Both the position numbers and the translations under genes were made by a program. A stretch of 44,404 bases of DNA from an uncultured Planctomycetales bacterium (GTDB lineage Bacteria > Planctomycetota > Planctomycetia > Isosphaerales > Isosphaeraceae), in the NCBI GenBank assembly GCA_903926465.1, contig CAIYJE010000167.1, positions 1 through 44,404 on the forward strand, given 5' to 3'. The notes beneath the pieces are model-generated. The model did not search any database. It was given only the letters and a program-made list of their open reading frames with translations, and was not told the origin of the DNA. This document shows, piece by piece, positions 4,806-24,759 of the stretch. The first letter of the stretch is position 1, and each line of letters begins with the position of its first letter.

Positions 4806-6338
4806 TCAGGGCTTGGTTGCTGAGTCACGGATCTCATACACGGTCACAGGCCCCTCGGTCCGGACTGGGACGACCCGTTGCGGAGACTCGGCAGCAAACT
4901 GGGCCACGGTGCCAGGCAAGGCGCGGGCATAACGGTCGGCATCGTCGATCAGGTAGGCCACCTGGTATTTCTCGATCACCGAGCCAATCGTTTGGGTGCT
5001 TTCTGGGGCAGGGGCCGGTACCACCGTGCGTTTCCGGTTCATCAGCCAGAAGGCTTCGCCACCTTGGCGCGTGATCACGGGGCCCGGTTTCCGGCCCTGA
5101 TCGGCAATCCACTGGCAGGCGGCGTCAAAGCTGGCCGGTTGGCTCGCCTTGCGGGGGATCAGACTGTACAGGCTGTAGGGGAGCGAGAGGGCCAGTAGGA
5201 ACCAGGCCGCGCGCGCCCCGGGGGTCAGCCGGTGAGTGTGGGGGAACCGTGGCTTCCAGGTTTGCGCCAGGAATTCGAGGCTGATCCAGGCCCCGAGCAA
5301 GAGAAATGGCACGAGCGGGATCAGGAACCGGCCGGCCTCCTGGAAGGGCCAAACCAGGAGCAGGGCCATGGTCAAGAAAAACCCCAGACCGGCCAGCCGC
5401 CAGCGAGGCTGGCGCAGGGTGAACGCCAGCCCGGCCAGAATCGTTCCCGTGGCCAGCAGTCCCCAGCCGTATCCCACCAGCCACCAGCGCGGGCGGAAGA
5501 TGGTGGCAACCTCATTGAGCGGGCCAAAAAGTTGGTCTGGAATTCGCAACAGGTAGAAATTTGCCTGGCTGCTGATCAATTCCCCAAGCCCTTGCCTGGG
5601 TAAGAGTTCTGCCTGGGTTCCTGCTTGCACATTCAGGAGCCAGCACAGCCAGGGAAGCAGGCCCAGGCCCAGTGCCAGCAGATAGGTGAACAGCGCCCGT
5701 GGGCCGCGATTCCAGAACAGGTCGATTCCCACGGCGGCAGCCAGCATGATTCCCACCTGACGGGTAAGCACGCACCCAGCCGCCAGGGCACCCAGTCCAA
5801 TCCAGGCTAAGAAGGATTTGCCCCGCGCCTGATCACTGGCAACGAGTAGACCAGAACTCAGGAGTAAGAACAGCGGCTCAGACTGGATCGCTCCGCCGAC
5901 ACGGCCCCAGGTCCAGTTGATGGCCAGGGCTGCGGTGAGCAGACTTGCCGGCAGCGCCGGCATGCGGGCGTTCAGCCACCGTCTGAAAAGCAGTACGGCC
6001 CCGATGGTGCAGGCGAGCGAGAAACCGTGCGCCACGGGAAATGAGGGACCGGTGAACGTCCATACGGTGGCCAGCGCCACCGGGTAGCCGGGTGGGAAAT
6101 GGGCGTGCCTGGGGGCATCGGGATGTTCGATTGCGCGGTACCCCTGACCGGTGCGCAATGATTCTGCCAGCACGGCGTACCCGGCACCATCGAACCGGGG
6201 CGGGGCCTGCCAGTTCGTTTTCAGGCCGATGAGCAGGGCGAGTGCCAGCACTGCGAGCCATGAGAGGGTAGAAGTCCGAAAGAGTTGCCTAAGGCTGGGT
6301 TCTGACATCGAATCACGTGATGACATGGGAATCGCCAT
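4806..6338 (-). CDS. GT39/ArnT-like polytopic membrane glycosyltransferase
   Basis: About 510 residues with roughly ten membrane segments. After the first segment comes WQAPPRFDGAGYAVLAESLR ... FPPGYPVALA, the acidic residue plus 'PPGYP' layout of GT39/PMT-like enzymes; the aspartate of RFDGAGY is the likely catalytic acid. The C-terminal third is a soluble extracytoplasmic domain (ITRQGGEAFWLMNRK ... TVYEIRDSATKP). ATG 6338 is chosen because an AAGG lies upstream; the frame is open to a TTG at 6419, and ATG codons at residues 5 and 11 are alternatives. The gene at 3298-4677 lies about 130 bases downstream on the same strand, so the two probably form one transcript. Confidence 0.72.
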   Translation of the reverse strand: MAIPMSSRDSMSEPSLRQLFRTSTLSWLAVLALALLIGLKTNWQAPPRFDGAGYAVLAESLRTGQGYRAIEHPDAPRHAHFPPGYPVALATVWTFTGPSFPVAHGFSLACTIGAVLLFRRWLNARMPALPASLLTAALAINWTWGRVGGAIQSEPLFLLLSSGLLVASDQARGKSFLAWIGLGALAAGCVLTRQVGIMLAAAVGIDLFWNRGPRALFTYLLALGLGLLPWLCWLLNVQAGTQAELLPRQGLGELISSQANFYLLRIPDQLFGPLNEVATIFRPRWWLVGYGWGLLATGTILAGLAFTLRQPRWRLAGLGFFLTMALLLVWPFQEAGRFLIPLVPFLLLGAWISLEFLAQTWKPRFPHTHRLTPGARAAWFLLALSLPYSLYSLIPRKASQPASFDAACQWIADQGRKPGPVITRQGGEAFWLMNRKRTVVPAPAPESTQTIGSVIEKYQVAYLIDDADRYARALPGTVAQFAAESPQRVVPVRTEGPVTVYEIRDSATKP

Positions 6339-6892
6339 GGTCGATACTGGCCCTTGAACTCGTCGAGTACCTGGACCCAGTGGGTATCGTCGATTGTTCT
6401 GGCTGTTCCGGTCAAGCAATTACCCGTTGAGCCAGACAAGTTGCTGAAACAGACAGGAAATCCTGACGCAAGATAACGGTTTGCGATTGGATTGCAGATC
6501 TGGGAGGACAGCAGCCTTCGGCGGTTTCTTGGGGTTGTTTGTAGGTGCTACCCAATCGTGAACAACGATAGTCAACGTGCAAGGCGATATCCTGCGTGTA
6601 ACGCTGGCCTTGAGAGTACGCTCACAGCGAAATCGGAAGAGCGCACTTTCGGCACGTCGTACCGTCGTCAGGATCCCTGGAGAGAGGCCGAATCTATAGA
6701 GCCGTACACCGGGGATACCAGGATGAGTCGAGGCGCAAGCCAAGGATCGCAAGAGAATGCCAGCATCCTGCACCATTCTTATTTGTCAGCCACCAGAAAA
6801 TGATTCAAGAGGCTCGTGGCACCAGGAGACCGTTTCTGTGTAATCTGGAGCTTGGACCAATCCATCATTTCAAGCCTTGAAGGGAAAATGAC
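6339..6892. other. Intergenic region, 554 bases, holding a degenerate repeat copy
   Basis: This lies between two divergently read genes, so it must carry both promoters, but I see no convincing -35/-10 pair. The only structure I recognise is the degenerate inverted-repeat element at 6478-6564. Open frames here (for example a minus-strand frame to 6776) have no ribosome-binding site and no recognisable family. Confidence 0.5.
6478..6564. repeat. Degenerate copy of the dispersed inverted-repeat element
   Basis: Three blocks match the element at 22420-22624 in the same order. The left end 6478-6499 (GGTTTGCGATTGGATTGC...) is 17/22 identical. The core AGGACAGCAGCCTTCGGC at 6505 onward corresponds to the palindrome arm at 22481. 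The right end 6543-6564 (...ACCCAATCGTGAACA) is 18/22 identical. The right palindrome arm is missing, giving about 87 rather than 205 bases. Confidence 0.5.
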
Positions 6893-7675
6893 ATGCTAAG
6901 ACTTTTGCTCTATATTACTAGCCTGGGCAGTATTTCGGAGGAGAGCGTGGCGGAAGCGCGTTACGCCGTAGTTGGATCTTGGTGGTTGGATGGCAACGGT
7001 AGCCCTGGTACCCTGGTGATCAAACTGGTGGCAGGGAATGAGATCACGGGCCATGTCTATGACCAGCCAATCACCGGTAGATTTGATGCAGTCGCCCGTC
7101 GCTTGATTTTTCAGCGCATGCTGAATCCAGGCGATACCCAACCCCGCCAAGAATACACTGGCGTGCTGACCCGTGATGCTGGTTCCTCACCGCCCCGCTA
7201 TTGCCTCACGGGAACCTTCCGCGCCCTCGACACTCCCTCGTTTGGTGAACCAGGGATACAGTACCCCTGGTTTGCCAAGGCAACACGCCTTCGGTTGCCA
7301 GCCGAAGACCTCAAAGAGTTGCAGGGGGCGTGGCAGGTCTCAGACATCGTCGATTGCAAAAATCAAGCGGTGAAATTACCGGAGTCAACCCAACTCCAAA
7401 CGCTACACACGCGGTTGGTGTTTCAGGGGAACCAGTTGCTGGAGAACGGAAGGGTCGTGGCTACCCTGACCAATGACTTGGATATCCCTGATCTTGAGTC
7501 GCAAAAAGGGTTGAAGGGACTTCGACTCTGTCTGCTGACGTTGCCAGATGGACGAGGAATTGTCTGTAGTTATGGATTGGAAGCGACAGGCCTGGTGATT
7601 GCCTACCCGCATACTACAAGCGAACGTCGCGGATTAACGGGTCAGATTGTTTTTCTTAAACGACCTGAGCATTAA
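6893..7675 (+). CDS. TIGR03067-like domain protein
   Basis: 260 residues. The C-terminal half, from about residue 140, has the pattern of the planctomycete TIGR03067 domain: LQGAWQVSDIVDCKNQAV, then RLVFQGNQLLENGRV, and a terminal GQIVFLKRPEH. The N-terminal half (VVGSWWLDGNGSPGTLVIKL ...) looks like a second, diverged lipocalin-like beta-sheet repeat. A short hydrophobic N-terminus (LRLLLYITSLGSIS) may be a weak signal peptide. AAGGG lies about 10 bases before the ATG. TIGR03067 has no established biochemical role. A second family member is at 13029-13454. Confidence 0.6.
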   Translation: MLRLLLYITSLGSISEESVAEARYAVVGSWWLDGNGSPGTLVIKLVAGNEITGHVYDQPITGRFDAVARRLIFQRMLNPGDTQPRQEYTGVLTRDAGSSPPRYCLTGTFRALDTPSFGEPGIQYPWFAKATRLRLPAEDLKELQGAWQVSDIVDCKNQAVKLPESTQLQTLHTRLVFQGNQLLENGRVVATLTNDLDIPDLESQKGLKGLRLCLLTLPDGRGIVCSYGLEATGLVIAYPHTTSERRGLTGQIVFLKRPEH

Positions 7676-13540: not shown

Positions 13541-14587
13541 TCACGCGTTGGCGGTGGCTTGGTTCTTGGCATCTCGCGCGATGTGCAGCCAGGTATGGAC
13601 GTGGGGTGAGCCACGGAAGTACCAGGAGAGGGCCGGTCCTTCCAGCTTCCACAAATCCCACACGCCGTCGTTGCCAATATCGCCTTCTTTGTAGAAGGTC
13701 AGCCGCAGCCTGTCGATTCCGCCGGCGCCCTGGATGCATTCCATGGCCTCGTCCGCGTCTGAGGCCCTGAACGGCAGCAGCATGTCTTTGAGCAGGGCGT
13801 CGACCATCTTTTTCTGCTGACCGTCGAGTGTGGCAATTGCCACACCTGGCCGCTGGTCGATGGCATCGCCCACCAATCGGATGCTTTTGGCGCTATCGGG
13901 TTCGGCCGTATTGACCAGGGCCTGGGCCTGCTGCTTGTCGTCAAGCGACTTGTAGATGGCGTTGGCCTGTCGGCCCTGGTACCACCACACGTTGTCGGTG
14001 TGGCCGGCGTCTTCGTTGTCGCTGTGGGAGGCGTGGCCGTAGAAAATCGGGCCGCCAAAGGCGAGCCCTTCCACGCTGTTGCCATCGGCGCGTAGGGTGT
14101 CGTGCCGGCCGCTCAAGACCCACTCAAACGGCGTGTCGCTGCCCGGTTCACCGAACAGGGCCACATGGTAGTTATCAAAGCCGCCGGCGTCTTCGTCCAT
14201 CTGGTGCATGAACCGGGCGTAACCATCTTCGCTGGTAATCCCCTTCATGATCTCCAGGCAGAGCGCCTGCTGTTCCTTGGTCATGTCGCTGATGGTGGGT
14301 TTGACGATGGCCCAGTTGTTATTGACCATGGACCGCTTGGGGTGGTCGAACGGGAAGCTAATCAGGGTGCGTTGCTCGTTACTCAGGGTTTTGAACAGGC
14401 GGGCGACGGCGGTTTCGGCGGCGTCTTTGGGGCTGGGCCCAGCCTTCTCCTGACCCAGGATCGGGACGGCAGAGATGAGGGGGAGGGCAGCGGCTCCCAG
14501 GGCCGAGGCACCCACGCCCCGAGCGAACTGGCGGCGGGAAAGGGGCAAGTTGCGATCGTCGCCTGAGGGCGGCATGGGGTGTGCCAT
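13541..14587 (-). CDS. DUF3500 family protein, Tat-exported
   Basis: 348 residues. The N-terminus has a twin-arginine signal (SRRQFARGVGASALG) followed by a hydrophobic stretch ending near ILGQ, so export is expected to be of a folded, possibly metal-bound protein. The rest matches the DUF3500 pattern: LSNEQRTLISFPFDHPKRSMVNNNW, WVLSGRHDTLRADG, FGGPIFYGHASH and a late GPALSWYFRGSPHVHTWLHI. The many His/Asp residues (GRHDT, HSDNEDAGHTDN, HVHTWLH) suggest metal binding, but the function is unknown. The start is an ATG with GGAG upstream. The sulfatase gene reads away divergently. Confidence 0.75.
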   Translation of the reverse strand: MAHPMPPSGDDRNLPLSRRQFARGVGASALGAAALPLISAVPILGQEKAGPSPKDAAETAVARLFKTLSNEQRTLISFPFDHPKRSMVNNNWAIVKPTISDMTKEQQALCLEIMKGITSEDGYARFMHQMDEDAGGFDNYHVALFGEPGSDTPFEWVLSGRHDTLRADGNSVEGLAFGGPIFYGHASHSDNEDAGHTDNVWWYQGRQANAIYKSLDDKQQAQALVNTAEPDSAKSIRLVGDAIDQRPGVAIATLDGQQKKMVDALLKDMLLPFRASDADEAMECIQGAGGIDRLRLTFYKEGDIGNDGVWDLWKLEGPALSWYFRGSPHVHTWLHIARDAKNQATANA

Positions 14588-18043: not shown

Positions 18044-19810
18044 ATGAGTAATCTTTCATCGCCAGCTTCGACGACCGGGATCAGTCGATACGTCTCGCTT
18101 GATGCTGCGCGTGCTTTCTCACTTCTCCTCAGCGTTCCGCTGACCGCAATCTCAGTCTCGGATGGCCTGTTCAGGTGGGTTGGGGGGGCCATTCAGGGCT
18201 TCCAGGCACCCCTGTTTCTGCTGATCAGTGGATATTTTTCGATGATGCTTTGTCAAAAAATGGGAATTGGAATCCTGCTGATTCAACGTCTGCAGCGTGT
18301 GTTATTGCCCTGCATCGCCATGCTCTACCTGATTGTGCCGGCGTTCCTCCTGCTCTCAGACTGGTCCAGAGGCCAGGGCCGTCAGCAGCCCCAACCGCAG
18401 TCTCAGCAAGCCCAGCCAAAACCCGAGTCCACACAGAAACCAGAGACCGCTCAGGCGGTTCTGGGCTCACAACCTGATGCCACGCCCGTTCCAGAGGCCG
18501 TGGCCGAGGCCGGCGCCGAGTCTTCCAAGGAACTGCGGGAACTGGTGCGATCTGGAAATGTTGGCCGCGTTCAGCAACTTCTGAAAGACGGAGCCGACCC
18601 GAACGAAGCTGATCCTGAAACCGGATTTCCCCCGCTTCACGTTGCCGCCGCGCGGGGGAATTTGGCGATGGTCAAACTCCTCACGCAATACAAAGCCAAC
18701 ATCAAGACGGAAATTCGTGGTGGTAATCAGGTTTTGCAGACGGCGTTGGTTTTTGGACGACGGGAAGTGGCCGAGTTTCTGGTTTCCAAAGGTGCCAACC
18801 CAAATCAGAGGCGAGGTAACACCGACTTGGCCGGCCAGGCACTCAGGACGAACGAGTTTTCCACTCAGACGACTGCGTTGAAAATGGGGATTCCCAAGGA
18901 AGCCTGGGCGGCAATTCAAGAGCGGCGCACCGAGTGCAAGAAGTACCTGAATGAGTTGGAAACGGCCCAGGAACAAGTTACCCGTGAGAAGCTGACCTCG
19001 GTTCAACGAGTGCGGGCCGATTATCGTCAATCTCTCAGAGATTTTCAGGCTTTTCTGGCGTCTCCGGTTTTCACGTTCAACGTGTTTCATCACCTCTGGA
19101 TGTTGTGGGTCTTCTGGTGCCTGCTTTTGGTTTTTGCCTTGTTTTTTGCGTTCACCAAATCATTCAGGCTGAAGGTTCCCTCCTGGGTGATCATGTCTCC
19201 CTACCGACTGCTCTGGCTCATTCCCCTGACCATGGTGCCCCAGTTTTTCATGCAGATGGGTCGTTTTGGCTTTGGTGCTGATCCTGCGCCTGGCTGGGTG
19301 CCAGAGCCACACCTGGCAATTTACTACGCCATTTTCTTCACGTTTGGTCTGATTTATTACAATTGCCAGGATGCCGACGGCAAGCTTGGTCGCTACTGGT
19401 GGGTCTGGATTCTGACGGCCTTCGGCCTGGCGTTGCCGGTTGGTTTACTAACCACCGATAAGGTTCTGGTGGGAGGGTTGGCATCGGTGGTGTTCGCGTG
19501 GTCCATGTGTTTTGGAATGATTGGCCTGTTTTTTCGATTCTTCAACCCGGAAAACCGGGTGATTCGCAACCTCTGTGATGCCTCATTTTTTATCTACCTA
19601 TTTTATCCGCCAGTGCTTATGGCAATTCAGGGATTGGCCAGACGCTGGAACCTCCCGATTTGGTTGATGTTCTTGCTGGCCTTCCTGGGTTCCATCGGCG
19701 TGCTTTACTCGATTTATGTGTTATTTCTGCAAAAAACCAAGATGGGTGGTTTTTTGAGTGGACTCACCACCAAGCGTGTCCAGGACTCGATGCTTGCCAC
19801 CAGATCCTGA
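18044..19810 (+). CDS. Acyltransferase-3/OpgC-like membrane protein with inserted ankyrin repeats
   Basis: 588 residues. Residues about 15-105 form the first membrane helices of an OpgC-like acyltransferase-3 protein (SLDAARAFSLLLSV, then APLFLLISGYFSMML and RLQRVLLPCIAML). A Gln/Pro-rich linker (about 110-155) leads to at least three ankyrin repeats at about 160-255: VQQLLKDGADPNEADP, PLHVAAARGNLAMVKLL and REVAEFLVSKGANPN. A charged helical stretch (about 285-335) follows, and then the remaining helices from HHLWMLWVFWCL onward. The family's R-x10-H motif reads Arg23 ... Thr34, so the expected His is missing. ATG 18044 is chosen because the upstream extension is not hydrophobic or conserved. 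It may modify envelope glycans or may act as a non-catalytic sensor; I cannot decide. Confidence 0.75.
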   Translation: MSNLSSPASTTGISRYVSLDAARAFSLLLSVPLTAISVSDGLFRWVGGAIQGFQAPLFLLISGYFSMMLCQKMGIGILLIQRLQRVLLPCIAMLYLIVPAFLLLSDWSRGQGRQQPQPQSQQAQPKPESTQKPETAQAVLGSQPDATPVPEAVAEAGAESSKELRELVRSGNVGRVQQLLKDGADPNEADPETGFPPLHVAAARGNLAMVKLLTQYKANIKTEIRGGNQVLQTALVFGRREVAEFLVSKGANPNQRRGNTDLAGQALRTNEFSTQTTALKMGIPKEAWAAIQERRTECKKYLNELETAQEQVTREKLTSVQRVRADYRQSLRDFQAFLASPVFTFNVFHHLWMLWVFWCLLLVFALFFAFTKSFRLKVPSWVIMSPYRLLWLIPLTMVPQFFMQMGRFGFGADPAPGWVPEPHLAIYYAIFFTFGLIYYNCQDADGKLGRYWWVWILTAFGLALPVGLLTTDKVLVGGLASVVFAWSMCFGMIGLFFRFFNPENRVIRNLCDASFFIYLFYPPVLMAIQGLARRWNLPIWLMFLLAFLGSIGVLYSIYVLFLQKTKMGGFLSGLTTKRVQDSMLATRS

Positions 19811-22624: not shown

Positions 22625-22722
22625 TCTGTAGGTGCTGAGCTTATCCTGATCTCGTATCCCCAAAGTTGTGAAACTCATGCCGCCGCGCGGGGTATATCCT
22701 TGCAGGGAAGGAGCCTGTGTCC

Positions 22723-24759
22723 ATGCGATGCGCTGACCAGATTGGTTTGTACCGAGCCGGCGGAATCATTCGGGAGCGTTGGAGTTATCCAGGTCGCGTC
22801 CTGGCACGCCTGGAGACATGTGCTCGTAGGGTGTCCGGCGTCGGATGGGCCTGGATATACGGCTGGTTCATGTCGATGGTGGTGCTATCAATCGGGTTTG
22901 CTGACACCAAGGACCAGGATCCGTTACCGACAACTTCCGAGGAACTGTTCCAGCCGACAAAGGTCTGGACTCTTCATCTGAAAGTTTTGCCTGAACAGTG
23001 GTCGGCCATGGAGCCGGCTGGGAATTCCAAGAACCCCTTCGATAACTCGATGTTTGGCCTGGGGATGTTCCTGTTCCCGTCGGTGGTTCGCGATGGGGAT
23101 CGGGATCATGATGGTCGCTTCACGCTCCAGGAGTTTCGTGAGCTGGCCCAGAACTGGTTCATGCAGTGGGATCAAGACTCGGATGGCTCGCTCGATTCAA
23201 AACAGCTTCGTGAGAGTCTCAAGGCTCTTCTTGAGCCATCCAGCACGGGCGAAGGCCAAGAGGAGGGCGGGCCGCAGGGCTTCACCCTGCAGGGCCGCCA
23301 GGGGAAGCGAAATGGTCTCTCGTCAGTGATGGGCTTTGAGTTCTCGTATGTGCATGCCAACCTTGAGTTCGCCGGGGTGGATCTGGGCGAGGTGGCGGTG
23401 CGTTACAAGGGAAACGGCACGTTTCTGGAATCACGCGGCTCACTGAAGCGCTCGCTCAAGATTGACCTGAACAAGTTTCAGAAGGGCCAGAACCTGGCTG
23501 GCGTTACCACTCTGAATCTCCATAACAATGTTGCCGATGCGGGACTGATGAATGAGGCTTTATCGTTTGGTCTGTTCCGAGACGCCGGAGTGCCCGCGCC
23601 TCGTACGTCGTATATCCAGGTTTATGTTTCGGTAGACGGCAAGCATGATCGCAAGTACCTCGGGCTGTATTCGTTGATCGAGAACGTGGATGAGCATTTT
23701 CTGGCGGATCGGGGACTGGATTCCGGCGGTGCAATTTTCAAGCCCAGTGATCAGCAAACCATGTTTCAATTCAAGGGATCTAACTGGCAAAAATATCAGC
23801 AATCTCTCGATCCCAAAACCAAACTCACCCGTGTGCAGAAGGCTCGGGTTCTGGACTTTTGCCGGCTGGTCTCCACGGCCAGTGACGACGAGTTCCGGGC
23901 GCGCCTGGGCGAGTTTATCGACCTCGACGAATTCGCACGATTTCTGGCGGTGACGGTCTGGATTGCCGACCTGGATAGCCTGCTCACCAGTGGCCAAAAC
24001 TTTTATGCCTACCTCAACCCAGCAACCAACCAGTTGCAGTTTTTTCCCTGGGATAAGGATCATACCTTTGGATCTTTTGGCGGTGCGAACGCCAAGGACC
24101 GTGAAGAGCACAGCATTCAAGTTCCCTGGGAAGGAAAGAAACGCTGGCTGGAGCGGATCTTCACGGTTGAGTCATTTGTCGAACGGTACCGGGCCGCGCT
24201 GACGCAGGTGAACTCAGAGGTCTCGGATTCCACCAAACTCAAAACGCGAATTGAGCAACTGGCAGACGCCATCCGGCCAGCCGTGAAACAGGAGTCGGCC
24301 CAGATGCTGAAACGGTTCGAGCTGGTCGTGGCGGGCAAGCCGCTGCCAGCGGGGCTGTTCGGCCTGGGTGGGACCACACCCACGGTTCTTCCGTTCGTGA
24401 AGGCCAGAGCCGCCTCGGTGAGTGATCAACTGGCGGGAAAGAGTGCAGGACAGATTCTTGGCAAGCCCGGGCCCGGTGAGCCTGAACGACCCGAATTTCG
24501 GCCCGATGAGCTCATTGAGACTGCGCTCTTGAAGGCGTTGGATCGCAATAAAGACAAGCAGTTGAGCCGCGATGAGTTTGTGACGGGGTTCGAAAGCTGG
24601 TTCAAGAAATGGGATACCGGTCAGGCTGGTGTGTTGCCTGAGGATGTGGTGCGCAAGGGGCTGAACAAGGCGTTACCGTTCCCGTTTCCTCCCATCTTCG
24701 GCGGCGGGAACAAGCCGAAACCCAGCGAAGTCGAAACGTCGGAGAAGACGCCTGAGTGA
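22723..24759 (+). CDS. CotH-kinase family protein with EF-hand motifs
   Basis: 678 residues from ATG 22723 (GGGAAGGAG nine bases upstream; GTG 22717 is possible). A basic N-terminus leads to a membrane or signal segment ending near SIGFADT. Two EF-hand loops (DGDRDHDGRFTLQEF at about 122 and DQDSDGSLDSKQL at about 150) lie before a CotH domain of about 200-560. That domain has VRYKGNGTFLESRG, KRSLKIDLNKF, NLHNNVADAGLMNEALSFGL and LGLYSLIENVDEHFL, ending with PWDKDHTFGSFGG. A third EF-hand (DRNKDKQLSRDEF at about 606) is near the C-terminus. CotH proteins are atypical Ser/Thr kinases of the spore coat or cell surface. The Ca2+ motifs suggest secretion and calcium-dependent action. The substrate is unknown. 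Confidence 0.85.
   Translation: MRCADQIGLYRAGGIIRERWSYPGRVLARLETCARRVSGVGWAWIYGWFMSMVVLSIGFADTKDQDPLPTTSEELFQPTKVWTLHLKVLPEQWSAMEPAGNSKNPFDNSMFGLGMFLFPSVVRDGDRDHDGRFTLQEFRELAQNWFMQWDQDSDGSLDSKQLRESLKALLEPSSTGEGQEEGGPQGFTLQGRQGKRNGLSSVMGFEFSYVHANLEFAGVDLGEVAVRYKGNGTFLESRGSLKRSLKIDLNKFQKGQNLAGVTTLNLHNNVADAGLMNEALSFGLFRDAGVPAPRTSYIQVYVSVDGKHDRKYLGLYSLIENVDEHFLADRGLDSGGAIFKPSDQQTMFQFKGSNWQKYQQSLDPKTKLTRVQKARVLDFCRLVSTASDDEFRARLGEFIDLDEFARFLAVTVWIADLDSLLTSGQNFYAYLNPATNQLQFFPWDKDHTFGSFGGANAKDREEHSIQVPWEGKKRWLERIFTVESFVERYRAALTQVNSEVSDSTKLKTRIEQLADAIRPAVKQESAQMLKRFELVVAGKPLPAGLFGLGGTTPTVLPFVKARAASVSDQLAGKSAGQILGKPGPGEPERPEFRPDELIETALLKALDRNKDKQLSRDEFVTGFESWFKKWDTGQAGVLPEDVVRKGLNKALPFPFPPIFGGGNKPKPSEVETSEKTPE

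Follow-up and report, generated by a model that had tools for sequence, protein, structure and literature searches.

The window, by which we mean the whole 44,404-nucleotide stretch of DNA that was analysed (contig C167; the assembly totals 6.89 Mb), carries a gene for an acyltransferase-3 (AT3) protein with a core of ten helices, into which an ankyrin module is inserted between helices 3 and 4 (Table 1). The gene comes after a sulfatase gene and a DUF4432 gene, and it is followed by a small ORF that matches no Pfam model, a glycoside-hydrolase-like gene and a CotH gene.

Table 1. Features of the AT3-ankyrin gene in the window, and loci of relatives with a shared-motif kinase gene upstream
Feature	Position	Strand	Remarks
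AT3 protein with ankyrin insertion, coding sequence including stop	18044..19810	+	ATG at 18044, stop at 19810, 588 aa
AT3 core TM1-TM3, residues 17-113	18092..18382	+	DxxR and RxxR kept; Thr34 at the TM1 His site; QGFQAP instead of HGFRMP
Gln/Pro-rich low-confidence linker, residues 114-151	18383..18496	+	AF2
Ankyrin repeats, residues 152-262	18497..18829	+	Pfam, AF2, fold match
Helical extension after the repeats, to TM4, residues 263-337	18830..19054	+	AF2; long helices 288-316 and 319-337
AT3 core TM4-TM10, residues 339-562	19058..19729	+	Pfam, AF2
Shared-motif kinase loci	L064, L066, L071, L075, L082, L084, L085, L086, L103, L111	same strand as AT3-ankyrin gene	

The Pfam model Acyl_transf_3 (PF01757) matched the protein at 58.2 bits against a cut-off of 31, in two pieces: model positions 3-101 at 18095-18367 and 113-325 at 19058-19717. 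Between the two pieces, at residues 168-256, lies a match to Ank_2 (50.1 bits against a cut-off of 27.3). These AT3 and ankyrin models were the only Pfam models over their cut-offs, and an SGNH domain is absent from the C-terminus. An AF2 model of the full protein, built from an alignment of 81 rows, had a mean pLDDT of 87.2 and a pTM of 0.84. It shows ten membrane helices, which together with the profile match over this core place the protein among the AT3 proteins, and it ends in a short tail soon after TM10. TM3 (75-113) and TM4 (349-371) enclose the insert, in which ten-residue blocks reached pLDDT values of 90-98 over residues 161-250 and 45-51 over residues 121-150. Residues 158-308 of the model aligned with ankyrin-repeat proteins of solved structure, most of them designed, and the best of the matches listed gave a Z of 18.3 and an rmsd of 1.9 over 128 residues (VIA-align). 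The insert is thus identified as ankyrin repeats by both profile match and predicted fold. PDB look-ups used the whole protein or the whole model; ankyrin structures filled the matches listed, among which there was no solved structure for the membrane part.

An initial annotation of this DNA had described membrane helices split between residues of about 105 and 348 by a Gln/Pro-rich linker, three ankyrin repeats and a charged helix, and had proposed structure prediction of the full protein as a check. The prediction returned the ankyrin fold, and AF2 and Pfam bear out the split, with the insert at about 114-348. The elements follow one another in the order described, with boundaries that agree to within about 10 residues, and the "charged helix" corresponds to the two long helices of the extension in the AF2 model. 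The count of three repeats fits the Ank_2 match; about four repeat-sized units are covered by the structural match.

The same annotation had likened the helices to those of OpgC/acyltransferase-3 proteins, and as a statement of relatedness this is right. OpgC/MdoC, itself an AT3 protein, takes part in osmoregulated periplasmic glucan synthesis, where it adds succinyl groups. Its model was the best NCBIfam match for the three members that we tested, at 57.8 bits for the window protein, where the insertion splits the match, and at 120.1 and 148.5 bits for two relatives. All three scores lie far below the cut-off of 338 bits for this model (NF003014), and the match of the window protein therefore denotes relatedness and not membership. 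E. coli OpgC has HSFRMQVFF and the TM1 His at the corresponding places, but it has 18 residues and no ankyrin repeats in the insert region, and the window copy is without the TM1 His.

Three more open AT3-ankyrin genes and one broken copy were found in the same genome. Two of the open genes lie in tandem on contig C115, one of them continuing onto C153 through an identical 141-base overlap, and the third lies on C41. The broken copy on C196 (L015, about 5700-7200) has several stops and frame changes, is missing part of the insert and shares 73% DNA identity with the C41 copy. The closest relative found for the window protein is one of the C115 paralogues, with which it shares 41% identity across 352 core columns; a search of 45 genomes of the family gave no better match. 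Among 59 genomes searched as relatives, the own genome included, 13 carried AT3-ankyrin genes, one of the 13 incomplete (G003). A draw from the family gave matches at E <= 1e-15 in 17 of 45 genomes, again with the own genome included, one match (L029) being a plain AT3, and a phylum-wide draw, in which four candidates were scored per genome, gave at least 11 positives in 294 genomes at E <= 1e-60 (own included).

A pattern scan of named genomes with HGFRM[PQ]LF and FxHLWFLW yielded at least 507 confirmed relatives, perhaps including plain AT3s; 31 pattern matches in viral contigs gave 0 confirmed copies. The best-scoring 80 of the at least 507 were used as the conservation set. According to record titles, which name seven phyla and are doubtful for some metagenome bins, they comprise 54 loci from Planctomycetota, 10 from Verrucomicrobiota, 4 from Latescibacterota, 3 from Gemmatimonadota, 2 from Armatimonadota, 2 from Poribacteria and 1 from Acidobacteriota, with 4 that carry no phylum. 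L024, whose N-terminal part is not in one frame, and the broken C196 copy were left out of the alignment rows. The initial annotation had suggested searching for the same insertion elsewhere, with an assembly fusion as the outcome that would undo its claim. Relatives in the own genome and in others share the build, and both Acyl_transf_3 and Ank_2 matched in 81/81 aligned members (the 80 and the window protein) at E <= 0.01. Because every aligned member matches both models, the build is not a product of chance or artefact. It defines a family that is spread over several bacterial phyla and is not an assembly accident.

The window copy departs strongly from this family. Its TM1 motif reads R23-X10-T34, where His is found in all 80 relatives (the best of at least 507), and it thus lacks the R-X10-H motif that marks AT3 proteins; RxxR is kept at the cytosolic end of TM3 (R82, R85). 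Accounts of OafA/OafB report R-X10-H as essential (parts of PMC9833829 and PMC7448272), and the former also reports RxxR as essential. His51 and His521 are, like His34, present in 80/80 relatives, and all three are changed in the window copy (H34T, H51Q, H521Y), as are R54 and K542 (79/80 each; R54Q, K542M). Losses also include D18 and, at the inner end, R563, which is Arg in 80/80 relatives and Gln in the window copy. The residues conserved across the TmAT superfamily (DxxR, FxxxxG, TMH3-Arg, TMH6-Gly and TMH9-Tyr) are described in sections of PMC12423673 as forming the acyl-CoA site. Of these the window copy keeps D20, R23, F58, G63, R82 and Y518, as matched by motif and not by structural alignment; G435, invariant in the A3 alignment, was taken as the TMH6-Gly by position only. 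Loss of R563 may have weakened acyl-CoA binding.

Across the 80 columns that are conserved in at least 76 of the 80 relatives, the window copy deviates at 28, while the next row deviates at 8 and the median row at 1. The conservation of the HGFRM[PQ]LF and FxHLWFLW stretches is biased by their use in the scan, which would miss degenerate copies like that of the window; the TM1 and C-terminal His residues were not part of the scan patterns. In the own genome, 22 other AT3 matches cover TM1, and 18 of them read DxxR-x10-H; the remaining 4 (L144, L153, L159, L161) were unreadable, with no accepted motif. A clustering of the losses towards the outer side of the membrane was considered and rejected, as the counts over all conserved TM columns (17/37 outer and 11/36 inner) do not differ significantly (p 0.23); ionisable residues only, a subset chosen post hoc, gave 5/6 outer and 1/7 inner (p 0.029). 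By descent the window copy is an AT3, and judged by its TM1 motif it is no proven AT3 enzyme. The initial annotation, which took the protein for an enzyme, was correct about its AT3 relatedness but overlooked the absence of the TM1 His and of many residues that relatives keep.

We lean towards a joint reading in which the ankyrin repeats are an extracytoplasmic recognition module on an OpgC-like AT3 and the window copy is a fast-evolving, probably non-catalytic paralogue. A first alternative is that the window copy is a decaying gene, in which constraint has gone and the frame is still open by chance. The losses run throughout the protein, with 33 of the 82 columns that are invariant in 13 closer relatives gone where other members lose 0-10, and the end branch of the window copy in a tree of the membrane core is long (1.5 against a median of 0.45), but the C41 copy, which keeps the His, has one of 1.56. 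GC3 in blocks of the gene is 0.59-0.66, compared with 0.76 and 0.70 in two paralogues, and the C196 paralogue shows that a copy in the same genome has decayed. Against this, the frame contains 0 stops in 588 codons, while simulated neutral change to protein identities of 0.54-0.37 introduced a mean of 12-16 stops, with a minimum of 5 (100 runs each), and AF2 folds the protein with high confidence. The simulation is a rough one that takes no account of constraint having been lifted only recently. The open frame, the simulated stop counts and the visible decay of the C196 copy together indicate that selection probably held the frame for most of the history of the gene, although constraint may have been lost recently. 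We consider decay doubtful.

Alternatively, the window copy could be an active acyltransferase with an altered chemistry or acceptor, for which Thr34 or some other group is enough. Loss of the TM1 His alone is no proof of inactivity, to judge by two other families of the TmAT superfamily that have the acyl-CoA residues in common with AT3 proteins: HGSNAT carries Asn where AT3 proteins have this His, and GWT1 is without the catalytic His of HGSNAT (both from parts of PMC12423673). GWT1 also lacks the Asp of DxxR, which the window copy keeps, and the passages of that paper on GWT1/PIG-W and HGSNAT describe no ankyrin repeats in them. The open reading frame is intact, and DxxR, RxxR, FxxxxG and the TMH9-Tyr are all retained. 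This explanation must nevertheless accommodate the simultaneous change of three His, one Arg and one Lys that are kept in 80 or 79 of the 80 relatives, as well as the essential role reported for R-X10-H in OafA/OafB, and we judge it unlikely.

The extracytoplasmic position of the insert in the joint reading is taken from relatives and from published AT3 work. In the 80 relatives (the best of at least 507), the TM2-3 loop has a mean net charge of +5.2 and the insert one of -7.5, a pattern that fits an N-terminus in the cytosol and an insert outside the cytoplasm. Two other segments expected to lie inside, the N-terminus (0.0) and the TM6-7 loop (-0.7), are not positive. The window copy does not follow the pattern, with 31 K/R and 27 D/E in the insert and only 2 K/R in the TM2-3 loop, and its topology was taken from the relatives because its own charges fit less well. 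Topology work on OafB and Oac, as given in portions of PMC9833829, finds the TMH3-4 loop to be periplasmic, and in the published OafB model this loop keeps the pore occluded until the donor has been drawn in. By homology with OafB, the insert is predicted to be extracytoplasmic and to sit in the loop that modelling sets over the acyl-CoA pore. The claim of the initial annotation that the whole insert lies on one face of the membrane, between two helices, is supported by the AF2 model and by the architecture of all 81 members; its suggestion of tethering or gating is conjectural but gains in concreteness from the location of the insert in the TMH3-4 loop, which covers the acyl-CoA pore in the OafB model. 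Between TM3 and the first repeat (residues 113-157) the window copy has 45 residues, and the 80 relatives have a median of 6 (1-16). The module of other members is therefore probably held near the pore mouth, and that of the window copy on a one-sided flexible tether.

Two variants of the TM3-4 loop were seen in passing. On reading, L131, L132 and L133, from other families of the phylum, have two successive ankyrin-plus-helix modules in this loop. L040 (457-2052, -) encodes a plain AT3 without ankyrin repeats that has 68 Pro/Gly-rich residues in the TM3-4 region, which suggests that the loop tolerates insertions.

An inverted topology would make the ankyrin module cytoplasmic, where it could bind a cytosolic regulator. 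Most known ankyrin repeats act inside cells, the charges of the window copy itself do not favour an outside insert, and a Ser/Thr kinase gene on the same strand immediately precedes the AT3-ankyrin gene in 16 of the 75 loci for which an upstream ORF was called. The positive TM2-3 loop and negative insert of the 80 relatives and the topology work on OafB and Oac speak for the opposite orientation, and we regard a cytoplasmic module as quite improbable. That two genes were joined by an assembly error or in a one-off fusion, for which the unusual domain pairing and nothing more can be cited, is practically excluded by the three other open genes of the own genome, one of them read across the overlap of two contig ends, and by the same build in 80/80 aligned loci of other genomes.

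The origin of the insertion was addressed with a tree from the membrane core only, built by a quick search after removal of the insert columns. It held 48 ankyrin rows, of which 34 came from the 80 scan loci (the other 46 being left out) and 14 from the own genome and relatives, and 13 plain AT3 rows, namely E. coli OpgC and 12 planctomycete rows recruited by a search with the window protein. A branch with an SH-aLRT of 97 separates all 48 ankyrin rows from all 13 plain AT3 rows. The branches of OpgC, L040, L043, C41 and the window copy are long, and their exact placements are unsure. Judged from this tree, the ankyrin module was probably inserted into the AT3 core once.

Under the joint reading of a recognition module on an OpgC-like AT3, active members would work as published for other AT3 proteins, with cytosolic acyl-CoA entering the ten-helix pore (DxxR, RxxR, TMH9 Tyr) and the TM1 His assisting transfer at its outer end. 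Ankyrin repeats usually bind proteins. Because of this and of its position, the ankyrin module above the pore would recognise a protein partner or the acceptor and then position or gate transfer. The window copy still has the fold and the ankyrin module, along with most of the acyl-CoA residues, but has lost residues on the outer side (H34T, H51Q, R54Q, H521Y, K542M); it would no longer be a transferase and would act, if at all, by binding, as a partner scaffold, competitor or sensor. A more specific proposal, tentative and rather unlikely, is that it is a transmembrane acyl-CoA-binding pseudo-acyltransferase, with most of the cytosolic CoA site kept and outer catalysis lost, that reports acyl-CoA occupancy or competes, through its tethered extracytoplasmic ankyrin module, for the partner of its active paralogues.

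The arrangement can be compared with known systems. OafA/OafB (AT3-SGNH) and Oac (AT3-only) have the same ten-helix AT3 core, with DxxR and RxxR also kept in the window copy. In OafA/OafB an extracytoplasmic module lies above the pore, as the ankyrin module would in AT3-ankyrin proteins, where it would be placed like the SGNH domain but without known catalytic residues. The SGNH domain is however catalytic and C-terminal, following an 11th helix (parts of PMC7448272 and PMC9558356), whereas the ankyrin repeats sit in the TMH3-4 loop. Bd3460, a Bdellovibrio self-protection protein, sets a precedent for ankyrin repeats acting on envelope enzymes: as presented in sections of PMC4686830, it binds and inhibits cell-wall endopeptidases, but it is a separate ankyrin protein and not part of a membrane acyltransferase. 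The AT3 architectures named in the relevant parts of the literature are AT3-only and AT3-SGNH (PMC7448272, PMC9558356) and NRF fusions in animals (PMC12423673). Our literature search, which covered few subscription papers or preprints, gave no description of an AT3-ankyrin protein among the matches listed. The family combines the fold of a known enzyme with an insertion that is conserved widely and of which the literature searched gave no description, and the window copy has probably left catalysis.

AT3 enzymes carry acyl groups across membranes to surface molecules. How those without an SGNH domain recognise their acceptor, or whether they need a partner, is stated as open in passages of PMC7448272 and PMC9558356. 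A large subfamily, present in several phyla, with an ankyrin module in the loop over the pore would give a direct handle on this question, as the module could be deleted, exchanged for another or used to fish for a partner. A paralogue of the window type, with the outer active site gone and the frame and fold kept, would naturally separate acyl-CoA binding from transfer.

To survey the gene neighbourhood, we clustered the 575 ORFs that were called in the flanks of the 80 loci. The first cluster, with 29 ORFs in 23 loci, mixes kinases with WD40 proteins (L046, L113). The 16 upstream kinase assignments rest on kinase motifs, and Pkinase was found in 5/5 of the ORFs tested with Pfam (L059, L064, L084, L101, L112). 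Ten upstream kinase-like genes have a common N-terminal motif and lie 58-372 bases upstream (Table 1), so that the adjacency for the most part reflects a single neighbourhood conserved among related planctomycetes. No kinase lies beside the window gene, and no conserved neighbour that names a partner was found among the flanking ORFs of the 80 loci. The neighbourhood was rejected as a functional guide, and the joint reading does not draw on it. L101, from Acidobacteriota, has a different upstream kinase, itself preceded by an ECF sigma gene. In the window, the CotH-kinase protein (22717-24759, +) has EF-hand motifs flanking the CotH domain on both sides, and a DUF3500 protein (13541-14587, -), whose N-terminus reads as signal-like, adjoins the sulfatase gene.
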